DNA from: Calditrichota bacterium
Lineage (GTDB): Bacteria > Electryoneota > Electryoneia > Electryoneales > Electryoneaceae
Direction of reading: 5' to 3'
Assembly (NCBI GenBank): GCA_018263585.1
Contig: JAANWZ010000106.1
Coordinates: forward strand, 1 to 36,006
Length of the DNA: 36,006 nt
Each line of letters starts with the position of its first letter. The first letter of the stretch is position 1. Both the position numbers and the translations under genes were made by a program. The notes beneath the pieces were generated by a model that saw only the letters and a list, made by a program, of their open reading frames with translations, had not been told where the DNA came from and searched no databases. Positions 3,291 to 31,810 of this stretch are shown piece after piece.

Positions 3291-3363
3291 CCGCGGTTGC
3301 AGGCAACCGCGGGCCTGTTGGTCAAAGCCCGCCGGATCAACCGCGCTTGGCGAGCAAGCGCGG
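3291..3363. repeat. Two adjacent hairpin repeats, TTGC-core family
   Basis: The first hairpin is CCGCGGTTGC / GCAACCGCGG with loop AG (3291-3312), followed by GCCTG. The second is CCGCGCTTG / CAAGCGCGG with loop GCGAG (3341-3363), followed by GCACGAG. The second recurs with compensated stem changes at 16637, 32028, 32065 and 32102, and inverted at 31931. There is no T-run. The 306-bp gap 3085-3390 otherwise holds only the regulator promoter. Confidence 0.8.
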
Positions 3364-3881: not shown

Positions 3882-4034
3882 GTCATTCTGACGCCCGAAG
3901 GGCGGAAGAAGGTCCGAGTACGAACGGGGTTACTGTCTGGATCACCCTTGTTGGAACTGGACCTTCCCTTCACTTCGTTCAGGATAAACTTCACTGCGCC
4001 CGATAAACTGACATCGGGCTGCGTTCAGAATGAC
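3882..4034. repeat. Two-armed inverted repeat element, copy 1 (REPIN-like)
   Basis: A 153-bp element bounded by GTCATTCTGA (3882-3891) and its inverse (4025-4034). The left arm holds a CGCCC/GGGCG hairpin with a GAA triloop (3892-3904) and ends AAGGTCC (to 3915). The right arm begins GGACC (3959) and holds a GCCCGAT/ATCGGGC hairpin (3998-4019) whose loop reads GTCAGTTT on the minus strand. A 43-bp unique spacer separates the arms. Bases 3959-3992 are the exact reverse complement of 31663-31696 in copy 5. The 353-bp gap 3817-4169 contains nothing else that I can name. Confidence 0.85.
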
Positions 4035-12621: not shown

Positions 12622-12764
12622 GTGTCATCCTGAACAAGCGCGGCGTCTGTTTGCCGCGCGCTGTGAAGGATCTCGAGATCAAACGGTGAAGAACTGAGGG
12701 CACCTTCTGTGCTCGAGATCCTTCACCCCCGCACAAAAGGACGTGCGGGGATTCAGGATGACAC
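12622..12764. repeat. Two-armed inverted repeat element, copy 2 (REPIN-like)
   Basis: A 143-bp element and the cleanest copy. The terminal inverted repeats are GTGTCATCCTGAA (12622-12634) and its inverse (12752-12764). The left arm has a hairpin GCGCGGC/GCCGCGC with loop GTCTGTTT (12638-12659), then GTGAAGGATCTCGAG (12663-12677). The right arm is the inverse, CTCGAGATCCTTCAC (12712-12726), with a hairpin CCCCGCAC/GTGCGGGG (12727-12750) whose loop reads GTCCTTTT on the minus strand. A 34-bp unique spacer lies between the arms. The element fills much of the 440-bp gap between purF and pgsA. Confidence 0.88.
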
Positions 12765-16245: not shown

Positions 16246-16302
16246 CTTCCAGTCGCCGCCCGTGCGGGCTCGCCCGCGCGGCTGATCCAACGGTGCATGA
16301 AA

Positions 16303-16320
16303 CCCGGGGCGAGCCCCGGG
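16303..16320. repeat. Palindromic repeat CCCGGGGC-GA-GCCCCGGG
   Basis: A perfect 8-bp stem with a 2-nt loop, preceded by GGTGCATGAAA and followed by CCACCCAGT. Relatives with the same flanks lie at 16569-16586 and 16726-16743. A copy sharing GTGAAA and CCAC lies at 22057-22074, inside a reading frame. Confidence 0.8.
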
Positions 16321-16332
16321 CCACCCAGTTTT

Positions 16333-16512
16333 GTCATCCTGAACGAAGCCCGATGTCGGTTTATCGGGCGAAGTGAAGGATCTCGAGCACAAACAGTCAC
16401 ACCACCTGCTCCGTACCCTTCTCTACTATCGAGATCCCTTCGCTTCGCTCAGGGCAGGCTCTTCACTCGCGCCGCCTCAACCGATACGAACGGCGGCGCG
16501 GTTCAGGATGAC
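16333..16512. repeat. Two-armed inverted repeat element, copy 3 (REPIN-like)
   Basis: A 180-bp element with 12-bp terminal inverted repeats GTCATCCTGAAC (16333-16344) and its inverse (16501-16512). The left arm has a hairpin GCCCGAT/ATCGGGC with loop GTCGGTTT (16348-16369) followed by GAAGTGAAGGATCTCGAG. The right arm has a hairpin GCGCCGCC/GGCGGCGC with a 15-nt loop (16469-16499). The inner ends carry the inverted ATCTCGAG / ATCGAGAT signal around a unique spacer. It sits inside the 631-bp gap 16246-16876. Confidence 0.85.
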
Positions 16513-16524
16513 ACTGTTACAGGC

Positions 16525-16778
16525 CCGTGGTTGCTTGCAACCGCGGCTCATCCACCGCTGTATGAAAACCCGGGGCGAACACCGGGCCACCCGTTGGAGG
16601 AAGGGGACGCTTGCTGGCAAGCGTCCCCGGAGTGCACCGCGCTTGGCAAGCAAGCGCGGGCACGAGTGGGGCGGGAACAGGTCCGTGGTTGCTTGCAACC
16701 GCGGTTCATCCACCGGTGCATGAAACCCGGGGCGAGCTCCGGGCCACCCAGTCGTCCCCCGCACGCGGAGCTGCGGGG
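16525..16778. repeat. Cassette of alternating hairpin repeats
   Basis: Seven hairpins lie in a row. They are CCGTGGTTGC/GCAACCGCGG (16525-16546), the CCCGGG unit (16569-16586), GGGGACGCTTGC/GCAAGCGTCCCC (16603-16628), CCGCGCTTG/CAAGCGCGG with GCACGAG flank (16637-16659), CCGTGGTTGC/GCAACCGCGG again (16683-16704), the CCCGGG unit again (16726-16743), and CCCCGCA/TGCGGGG (16757-16778). The first pair of modules recurs in the same order joined by a near-palindrome TTCATCCACCGGTGCATGAA. No gene is seen between 16246 and 16876. Confidence 0.8.
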
Positions 16779-21964: not shown

Positions 21965-24900
21965 GCGGCCGGGACGCGCGAGCTCGTGTGGCCGCCCGAC
22001 CGGGAGGATCGTTCGTCCGTGCGCGCCGGTTCGGTGTCGCCCGTGCGGGCGTGAAACCCGGGGCAAGCCCCGGGCCACACCTGCCGGTTCTGGTTATCTT
22101 AGCTCTTGTTGCGACCTTGCTCGCGGCTGTGCCCGTGTATCCGCAGGCGGCGGGTGAACGCGAGGCCGCCGACCCGCTCACGAGCGACGGCGAGTTCCTG
22201 CACGCGCGCCGCCTCTATCAGCGGGGCATGTACGAACTTGCGGTGCCTGAGCTCGAGCGGTTTCTCAAGATGTATCCGGAGCATGATCGGACCGCCGAGG
22301 CCGCCGCGTTACTCGCGAATGCGCTGCGCGAGCAGGCGCGGTTTGACGAGGCGCGCACGGCGTACGAACTCGCCGCGGTGCACGAGTCCGACACGACGCG
22401 CACAATCGAGCTGCTGCATCGCGCCGCGGAGATGGACCTCGCGCTCGGCGACACGATGCGCGCGGTGCGCGGGTATCTCGCGGTGACGGTGCTGTTTCCG
22501 GAGGCGGAGGGGTTGCCGCGCACGCTGCTGCGCGCGTCACGGCTGCTCGTGTCCGCGGGCCGGTGGGCGGAGGCGGAGAACACGGCCGGCACGTTGCTGC
22601 GCGACTACCCGGGCACGCCGTGGTCGATGGAAGCACATTTGCTGCTCGCGCAGGCGTACGCGGGTCGCGGCGACCTCCCGCCGGCGATCAACGAGGCGCG
22701 CGGGGTGATCGACCGGGCGCGGGACGACAGCCTCGCGCTGCGCGCGCACCTGCTCGCGGGACGCTGGGAACTCGGGCGCTATGACCCGGTTGCAGCGGAG
22801 CACGTGTGGTCTGAAGGGCTGGAACGCGGTGGCCCGCGCGCGCTGCGGCTCGAACTCGCGGCCGCGCTCGCCGAGTTCGCACGCGAACGCGGACACGCCG
22901 CCGGCGCCCGCGACGCGCTGGAGACCGTCGCGCCCGGCGCGGCGGATTCCGTCGCGGGGACCGCGCTGCTCGCGCGGCTCGGCGACATCCGTTTCCTGCT
23001 CGGCCGCTATGACCGCGCGCTCGCCGCGTACGATTCACTCGATTCCGGCGCCGCGGAAATCGAGCTCCGGCGCGCGTACTGCCTCGCCTATCTCGGCCGT
23101 CACGAGCAGGCGTTTGCTGCCGCGACCGCTGCAGCGGGCGACAGCGGGGGGTATCGCGTCCCGGCGCTCGCGCTCGCAGCGCAGGAGGCGCGCGCGTTGA
23201 ACCGTGTGGATACGGCCGGCTCGCTGTGGCTGCGCGCGCTCGCCGACGCCGGCGATTCGATCACGGCCGCCGTCGCCGTTCACCAGGCCGCGCTCGCGAT
23301 CAGAGCTGAACAACCCGCCCGCGCGCTGGCGCTGCTCGGCGAGCACGAATCGGTCGCGTCGGAGACTCCGCTCGCGGACGATCTCGAGTGGCAGCGAATC
23401 GAACTGCTTCGCCGGCTCGGTCGCGTGGAAGAGGCGGCGGAGCGGTGCGACGAACTGGCGCGGCGGTGGCTGTGCAGCCCGTACGCCCCGCGCGCCCGGG
23501 AACTCGCCCGCGATCTACGCGCGCTGTTCGTGCAGGAAGACGCCGAGCACGAGCTGCTCGCGCTGATCGAAACCGCGAAGGACGGCCCGCTGAACGCCGC
23601 GCAGCGTCTCGAACTCGCGCGGCTGAACGCGGAAGTGCGCCGGGACTTCGAGCGCGCCGCGGCGGAACTCGTCCCGTTGCTCGACGGGCGGCATGTGCCG
23701 GACTCGATTCGGCGCGAGGCGGGAGGACTATACCGCGAGGTCGTCTGGCGGCGGTGGCGGAAGGAGACCGCGCAGCGCAAAGCGGGCGCGGACGGCAACT
23801 CGCGGGGGGCGGTCGAGGCGGAGACGATGATCTACGCCTCGCTCGCCGGCGACACGTCCCGCGCGATGCACGACCCGGATCTCGCGTACCGGCTTCATCT
23901 GCTGCACGAGGAAACGCTGGCGAAACCCTCTGAGCGCGTCCGGTTCGCGCGGGCGGTGTGGACGCGTTACCTCGCCGACCACCCGGGCTCGGTCCACGCC
24001 GCCGACGCCCGGCTCCGTCTCGCGCGCGCTCTGCTCACGCGCATCGGCGATGAGCCGTCCGGCGCGCTCGATTCACAGGCCGCGGATCAGCTCGCGCGGC
24101 TCGCGGAAACGGGCGGCGCGCTCCGGAACGAGGCGCTGCTGCGCTGGCGCGAGCTCGCGGTGCGCAACGACAACGCCGCGCTCGCGGACAGCCTGGAACG
24201 GGTGCTGCTCGCCGGGCCGGATGACCCGGGCAAGGTCGAGGCCGCGGTCGGGCGTCTCGCACGCGGGGAGGAGCTGCCGGACTCGCTCGCCCGTTGGCTC
24301 GCCGGGGAGGCGTCGTGCCATCCGGACGTGCTCGACAATCTGCCGCCGCTCGCGGACCGGCTCGTGGAAATGGGCGAGGCGGAGACGGCGGACCGGCTGC
24401 TCGCGACGAACCTGCGCATGCGTCCCGGCGACCCGGCGGCGGTGATCCCGGCGGTGCGCGAGAGTGTGAACAGGTTCGCGCGCGCCCGGATCGCGGAAGC
24501 GGCCGGCGACACGCTCGCCGCGATGCTCGCGTTCGAAGCGTACGTGCGCGAGTCGCCGAACGGCCGCCACGCGAACCGCGCCCGGTTGCGGATCGGCGAA
24601 TACCAGCTCGCGTACAACCGCTGGGAGCGCGCGCAGCCGTGGTTCGAGCAGATCCTCGCCGACGATGACGGCGCCCCGCGGTTGCAGCCGATCCGCCGGA
24701 AGATGGCCCGGCGCGCGTTCGAACAGGAGCGGTTCGAGCAGGCGCGGGAATGGGCGCGCCTCGCCGGCCGACAAGAGTCCGACCCCGATTCCCTGTTCCG
24801 GCTGGATGAACTCGCGATCGTGAGCCTGTACCGGGCCGGCCGTCTCAGCGAAGCGCGCAGCGAAGTGCGAGCGTTCATCGGCCGTTACGATGATCACGAT

Positions 24901-26691: not shown

Positions 26692-26827
26692 GTGTCATTC
26701 TGACGCCGCCGCAGGCGGCGGAAGAAGGTCCTGCACGCAGTGAAGGAAAACTCCGAATTATCAACAGGTTGACTGTTGAGGATGACAGTCAGCAAACTTG
26801 GACCTGCTTCACTTCGTTCAGCATGAC
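26692..26827. repeat. Two-armed inverted repeat element, copy 4 (REPIN-like)
   Basis: The left arm is GTGTCATTCTGA, a CGCCGCC/GGCGGCG hairpin with GCA triloop (26704-26720) and GAAGAAGGTCC (to 26731). The right arm starts GGACC (26800) and ends with the inverse repeat TTCAGCATGAC (26817-26827); it lacks a hairpin. The spacer contains an extra GACTGT/ACAGTC hairpin holding a partial terminal repeat (GAGGATGAC), as if a third arm had decayed there. It sits between nadC and the GH57 gene. Confidence 0.8.
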
Positions 26828-31620: not shown

Positions 31621-31810
31621 GTCATTCTGACTGAAGCCCGACGTCCGTTTGTCGGTCGAAGGGAAGTTTATCCTGAACGAAGTGAAGGGAAGGTCCGGGT
31701 TCGACAGGGGTGGAGGATACCATGAAACTCGTGAAATGACCATTGGGTAACTTGGACCTTCTTCACCCGCCTTCACGCATACAGACGCGTGAAGCCGGTT
31801 TCAGAATGAC
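31621..31810. repeat. Two-armed inverted repeat element, copy 5 (REPIN-like)
   Basis: A 190-bp element with ends GTCATTCTGA (31621-31630) and its inverse (31801-31810). The left arm has a GCCCGAC/GTCGGTC hairpin with loop GTCCGTTT (31636-31657), then a 34-bp stretch 31663-31696 identical to the reverse complement of 3959-3992. The right arm, from GGACC at 31754, carries a CTTCACGC/GCGTGAAG hairpin (31771-31794) with loop GTCTGTAT on the minus strand. The unique spacer is about 57 bp. Confidence 0.85.

Follow-up and report, generated by a model that had tools for sequence, protein, structure and literature searches.

Five intergenic elements in a contig of 36,006 nucleotides, contig C9 of a genome of 2.85 Mb in 165 contigs, belong to a family of several hundred short two-armed hairpin-forming repeats, and the whole of this stretch is referred to as the window in the following. 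On balance, the reading is favoured that these are nonautonomous REP/BIME-like elements with two unlike ends, which would be copied as a folded single strand by a loop-reading ssDNA enzyme other than a proven RAYT. The original prediction of a copied, two-armed family that acts as a folded strand and possesses compensated stems was borne out; its assignment of the movement to a RAYT (Y1 HUH) transposase was not, as the local RAYT is found amid a different palindrome.

The elements of the window and their copies in the genome

Pattern reading of the window identified feet of the form GTCATYCTGA / TCAGRATGAC at 3882/4034, 12624/12762, 16333/16512, 26694 and 31621/31810. All five copies that had been announced were recovered in their places, and the end GTCATYCTGA, which had been claimed as common to all, was found in nine cases out of ten, with the exception of the 26694 copy, which reads TCAGCATGAC (GTCATGCTGA) on its right side. 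The six loops read beforehand were confirmed and are given below with the remaining features.

3291-3312, unstranded: copy of the RAYT-flanking palindrome (CCGCGGTTGCAGGCAACCGCGG)
3882-4034, unstranded: element 1, two-armed; feet GTCATTCTGA / TCAGAATGAC; TTC subfamily with ..AAGGTCC.. inner arms
3998-4019, minus strand: right head of element 1; stem GCCCGAT/ATCGGGC, loop GTCAGTTT at 4005-4012
12622-12764, unstranded: element 2, the central finding; GT + GTCATCCTGA...TCAGGATGAC + AC; feet at 12624-12633 and 12753-12762
12638-12659, plus strand: left head of element 2; stem GCGCGGC/GCCGCGC, loop GTCTGTTT at 12645-12652
12727-12750, minus strand: right head of element 2; stem CCCCGCAC/GTGCGGGG, loop GTCCTTTT at 12735-12742, a GTYNGTTT variant
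16333-16512, unstranded: element 3; feet GTCATCCTGA / TCAGGATGAC; extra hairpin insert AGCCTGCCCTGAGCGAAGCGAAGGG in the right arm
16348-16369, plus strand: left head of element 3; stem GCCCGAT/ATCGGGC, loop GTCGGTTT at 16355-16362
16519-16547, unstranded: copy of the palindrome that flanks the RAYT (ACAGGCCCGTGGTTGCTTGCAACCGCGG), separated by 6 nt from the right foot of element 3 on its outer side
26694-26827, unstranded: element 4; left foot GTCATTCTGA, short head GCCGCCGCAGGCGGC, right foot degenerate (GTCATGCTGA); without the GTCNGTTT loop
31621-31810, unstranded: element 5, 190-bp type; feet GTCATTCTGA / TCAGAATGAC
31636-31657, plus strand: left head of element 5; stem GCCCGAC/GTCGGTC, loop GTCCGTTT at 31643-31650
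31771-31794, minus strand: right head of element 5; stem CTTCACGC/GCGTGAAG, loop GTCTGTAT at 31779-31786

The right arm of element 3 carries a related but longer loop (GTTCGTATCGGTTGA), and element 4 combines a headless right arm with a short left head, GCCGCCGCAGGCGGC, that is devoid of the family loop. Near-complete copies of element 1 reside at other places in the genome, and six complete elements have exactly the length of element 5 (190 bp). An insert hairpin of 23-25 nt (AGCCTGCCCTGAGCGAAGCGAAGGG or TTTATCCTGAACGAAGTGAAGGG), of which many copies exist, is found at a given point in some arms and is missing there from others that are similar apart from this (in the window it is located in the right arm at 16387-16512), as if one hairpin had been added into another. 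All five window copies are intergenic, each downstream of a gene, and in two cases the neighbouring genes converge: one lies before a convergent trehalose-synthase-like gene, one between amidophosphoribosyltransferase-like and CDP-alcohol phosphatidyltransferase genes, one between a DUF3108 gene and a LiaF-like gene, one between nadC and a GH57 gene and one between folD and a convergent M28 peptidase gene.

Genome-wide, 111 strict arms (GTCATYCTGA-N20-40-GAAGGATCTCGA; reversed-pattern control 0) and 252 arms of a looser pattern (control 0) were counted, by which the search for further copies proposed with the original prediction was answered in the affirmative. Closer reading covered 61 stretches with 912 kb in total and identified 332 exact GTCATCCTGA feet (CC) and 119 exact GTCATTCTGA feet (TTC), with about 2 of each type being expected by chance according to our own estimate, and 101 complete single two-armed elements. 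Many arms locate within ~300 nt of contig ends (C7, C22, C31, C42, C92, C107, C115, C125, C128, C133 and C134), hence the assembly was probably broken by the repeats and the true copy number is probably higher.

Loop, stem and the unit of copying

Among 119 eight-base loops, T2 was found in 117, G5 in 117, T6 in 115 and T8 in 114. Position 4 is taken by all four bases, as had been stated before, and variation extends to position 3, which is C or T, and to position 7. In several head groups these three positions are off consensus in 20-60% of the copies as compared to 0-6% for the median position, whereby it depends on the group which of the three is the most variable; longer heads possess the YNGT motif twice (e.g., GTYNGTATNNGTTGA). 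From the sequences, we read the fixed bases as those likely contacted by a recognising protein and the variable bases as those likely not contacted. Neutral drift at unread positions within a long-lived copying population is enough for the scrambled position 4, and hypermutation is not needed.

For the stems, the claim that they differ between copies yet stay paired was found to hold in a larger set: when 174 distinct heads were chosen with the loop motif as the sole criterion, the six inner positions of the stem were paired in 83% of the cases as compared to 50% upon shuffling of the 3' halves, with 56% being the maximum of 1000 shuffles. A hand-picked alignment of 36 heads, drawn from heads already known as well paired and hence leaning towards structure, gave 94% paired positions versus 54% when shuffled and a covariation score of 0.985 versus 0.240, with all 7 pairs changed on both sides. 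Unique fully paired stems amount to 35, some of which differ at all six pairs on both sides. The foot pair was counted as C-G in 147 cases, T-A in 6, T-G in 1 and other in 1, which leaves 2 departures only. Mismatches among unique stems are G.T in 23 and A.C in 10 cases (p about 0.035), a weak bias that hints at the folded strand being the one which bears the GTYNGTDT loop.

Both heads are of the same known type in 3 of the 101 complete elements, with 13.3 being expected (p = 0.0005), and this rarity identifies the two-ended element as the unit, with its ends being distinguishable. The head types form two sets, defined after looking, that pair across (70 across versus 10 within); an alternative cause of unlike heads would be the avoidance of unstable perfect palindromes. 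The arms stand head-to-head, in line with the REPIN-like arrangement, an inverted pair of arms with a spacer in between, that had been assumed from the window. Further half-arms, each consisting of a foot, a head and a short linker, often precede the feet, the unit amounting to 41-46 nt in most cases in this genome and to 19-23 nt in relatives. Within one array, the linkers are 73-96% alike between neighbours; between loci they are different. That half-arm arrays result from plain flank-plus-foot duplication was considered and rejected for this genome, where outer flank and linker agree weakly (34% versus 29%); flank-linker agreement is clear at some loci of the relatives G017 and G006. In these relatives (G017, L103-L118; G006, L125), arrays of units with foot GTCATTCTGAAC and a locus-specific linker of 8-11 nt were observed on one or both sides of the core element, the linker closely resembling the outer flank at L113, L117 and L125.

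GTCAT elements keep an ordered register with other palindromes, and such arrangements are BIME-like mosaics. Other palindrome families that take part in ordered mosaics are CCCGGGGC-GCCCCGGG, CTTGACTTTAGTCAAG and GGGGACGCTTGC-GCAAGCGTCCCC (window positions 16260-16330, 16525-16752 and 22049-22078, and many other loci), of which the GGGGACGCTTGC-GCAAGCGTCCCC palindrome was found inserted inside the spacers of some 190-bp elements. The mosaics, like the locus-specific half-arm arrays, are of practical relevance, as they break assemblies and serve as markers of recent copying.

Of 39 genomes of the phylum, 24 contain feet of the GTCAT type, each with its characteristic heads. G006, a MAG of CAJVXH records that belongs to a different genus of the family, bears the same loop on an unrelated stem (CGGACGACTTG-GTCAGTTT-CAAGTCGTCCG), which documents that loop and foot outlast the stem. 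Matches to the GTCNGTTT head in Cloacimonadota, Planctomycetota and Desulfobacteraceae look like chance matches within other heads and were not counted as the same loop family. Comparison of G006 with its congener G005, whose syntenic stretches are 68-79% identical, revealed two orthologous intergenic gaps with GTCAT feet only in G006 and a third in which G005 alone possesses a full element. Elements were thus gained or lost in both directions, in gaps that are too diverged for an exact empty site.

Models for the copying of the elements

The favoured model assumes an intergenic, nonautonomous element with a tagged foot at each end (YGTC, followed by ATYCT pairing with AGRAT), each arm of which carries a head hairpin of free sequence under the loop GTYNGTDT. 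The proposed enzyme would bind hairpins and act as a single-strand endonuclease/transferase broadly similar to TnpA-REP or IS200/IS605 TnpA, and would recognise the folded arm via the foot and loop bases 1, 2, 5, 6 and 8. The stem would need to be paired only and loop bases 3, 4 and 7 would remain unread, and it is proposed that these bases are scrambled while the stems covary because the enzyme reads neither of them nor the stem sequence. Several points speak against this model: neither within the arms nor next to them was a gene for such an enzyme found, the gaps of the sister species are too diverged for an exact empty site, the G.T/A.C bias is weak, and the tandem half-arm arrays, in which many copies reside, are not predicted by a simple excision/insertion model. 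Likewise, no gene residing between two arms 0.3-6 kb apart, as in a composite element, was identified in the 912 kb. A more specific version is put forward tentatively and with less than even confidence: the repeats may be a CGTC-type family (see below) served by a distinct loop-reading, non-RAYT ssDNA enzyme, for which the fixed loop bases on interchangeable stems would represent the enzyme footprint and the two complementary head sets the left and right ends. If true, this would be the first concrete handle on the mobilisation of CGTC-tagged REPs. In this family of hundreds of copies, the putatively read parts (the foot and loop bases 1, 2, 5, 6 and 8) have been separated by evolution from a stem required for pairing only, which offers ready-made substrates for the search for the enzyme.

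It appears unlikely that the repeats are REPINs moved by the genome's own RAYT, handling the palindrome that flanks its gene and the GTCAT arms as one travelling mosaic. The Y1 genes of the genome comprise two genes for IS200-type TnpA without nearby arms and this RAYT, a real gene on contig C160 that matches NCBIfam NF047646 above the family cut-off. The edge GCAACCGCGGGCCTGT (the right edge GGCCTGT of the RAYT-flanking palindrome) occurs at most 60 nt upstream of a foot in 34 cases, and in 31 of these, among them the arm beside the RAYT gene, the distance amounts to 5-7 nt, a fixed spacing that possibly reflects a shared mobiliser. However, the surroundings of the gene comprise five exact copies of CCGCGGTTGC-NN-GCAACCGCGG (three upstream, two downstream; 252 copies genome-wide), a palindrome that has neither foot nor loop in common with the GTCAT arms, and a single GTCAT arm on one side only, 137 nt downstream and in the usual register beside the CCGCGGTTGC palindrome. 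Also the RAYT loci of other genera (L085, L094) are flanked by yet other palindromes, in G009 arms are present and a Y1 gene was not found, and GTCAT arms on both sides of a Y1 gene, for which the original prediction had suggested to look, were found at none of the 32 Y1 loci read in the phylum. The local RAYT was rejected as owner of the arms on account of the other palindrome around its gene and the one-sided GTCAT arm, and is kept as a rival. RAYT and CCGCGGTTGC palindromes clearly constitute a REPtron in its own right, and the RAYT is probably not the dedicated enzyme of the arms. On contig C160, the RAYT locus (L011, 1319-1444 and 2020-2112) presents itself as a low-GC coding sequence amid the CCGCGGTTGC-NN-GCAACCGCGG copies.

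Exact short terminal inverted repeats (GTCATYCTGA), fixed ends and intergenic dispersal would equally be expected of an ordinary MITE, the ends of which undergo double-strand cutting by a DDE transposase encoded elsewhere or lost, but we regard this as improbable. An apparent excess of target-site duplications (z about 5) dropped to z < 3 once copies with shared flanks were removed, and among the deduplicated elements (21 and 15, a small sample) none was clear, with the best z < 3 over 144 tests. Moreover, an enzyme that reads the duplex does not require stem covariation and a conserved loop, and the half-arm arrays likewise argue against a MITE.

Comparably low probability is given to host-maintained RNA structures, i.e., terminators or 3'-end stabilisers of mRNA, instead of mobile elements. 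The position of all five window copies downstream of genes, with two between convergent genes, would suit this idea, as would the strong hairpins, in which G-U pairs would be tolerated. Due to the inversion of the arms, however, each transcript would contain one loop-bearing orientation, yet the heads of both ends keep the same loop; the Rfam search of the window returned two tRNAs only and thus no match for the elements, and their presence or absence differs between sister species. Finally, that the repeats are mainly a by-product of replication, whereby hairpin slippage without an own enzyme duplicates them in place into tandem half-arms, is hardly credible, as it would account for the locus-specific arrays of foot, head and linker with their similar neighbouring linkers but cannot explain the dispersal of similar two-ended elements over numerous unrelated intergenic positions, the constancy of the loop bases on changing stems or the unique flanks on both sides of complete copies.

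Relation to known repeat systems

The favoured reading, a nonautonomous element copied by a loop-reading ssDNA enzyme, can be set against several described systems. CGTC-tagged REPs were reported as a superfamily of four described families without known transposase, the mover being left open in 2013 (Di Nocera, De Gregorio and Rocco 2013, PMC3733652). No later answer to this question was found in the literature searched, and a search for the arm sequences as text returned no paper. Like these REPs, the elements possess an unpaired YGTC tag (the base before GTC is T or C in 326 of 332 CC-feet and 110 of 119 TTC-feet), and their stem starts with A-T, T-A, seen here as an ATYCT/AGRAT foot with Y-R covariation that is most evident in the GTCATCC subfamily; in the majority of TTC feet, AAGGTCC follows instead. 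Also shared are the intergenic location without an adjoining dedicated transposase and the predominance of head-to-head dimers, represented here by the 101 complete elements in 912 kb. The published CGTC-tagged REPs differ in their stem of 8-9 bp, loop of 4-5 nt and mostly CCA tail (PMC3733652), whereas here a 5-bp foot stem, bulges, a separate head hairpin, a loop of 8 nt (or 15 nt) and a CTC/CTA tail were found, alongside frequent clusters and half-arm arrays.

REPINs (Bertels and Rainey 2011, PMC3116915) likewise consist of two inverted arms and a spacer that replicate as one unit, with compensatory changes and tandem clusters that include flanks. Unlike the elements described here, with their unlike heads and no RAYT flanked by arms, they have conserved ends that are nearly identical, with a cognate RAYT next to the same sequence. 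The class of RAYT-moved REPINs and GTAG REPs is characterised by the inverted doublet as copying unit, which is mirrored here by the non-random end types (p = 0.0005), and by a GTAG or GTGG tag 5' of the hairpin, in place of which YGTC is found here. Membership in the RAYT-served REPIN class therefore fails on tag and flanking gene. For the group 3 TnpA-REP/REP pairs of Stenotrophomonas maltophilia, it was reported that a loop base and an intact stem decide recognition, while changes of the stem sequence matter less (PMC8266576). The short tag, the perfect but loosely constrained stem and the critical loop base share the recognition task there in the way seen in the arms described here, which in this respect work like a REP, but a GTAG tag and a 3-nt loop are found there, and GTC and an 8-nt loop without known cognate enzyme here. 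A DDE-transposon MITE differs by its constant target-site duplication, as here no offset or length reached z = 3.

BIMEs are mosaic clusters of REP units in Escherichia coli. Their ordered palindrome mosaics are paralleled here by GTCAT elements alternating at fixed spacing with CCCGGGGC and CCGCGGTTGC palindromes, yet unit types and tags are others, and the two systems are set side by side by description. Taken together, the repeats are placed among the REP-type elements, a known kind of genomic parasite, of which they represent, as far as found, an undescribed variant.
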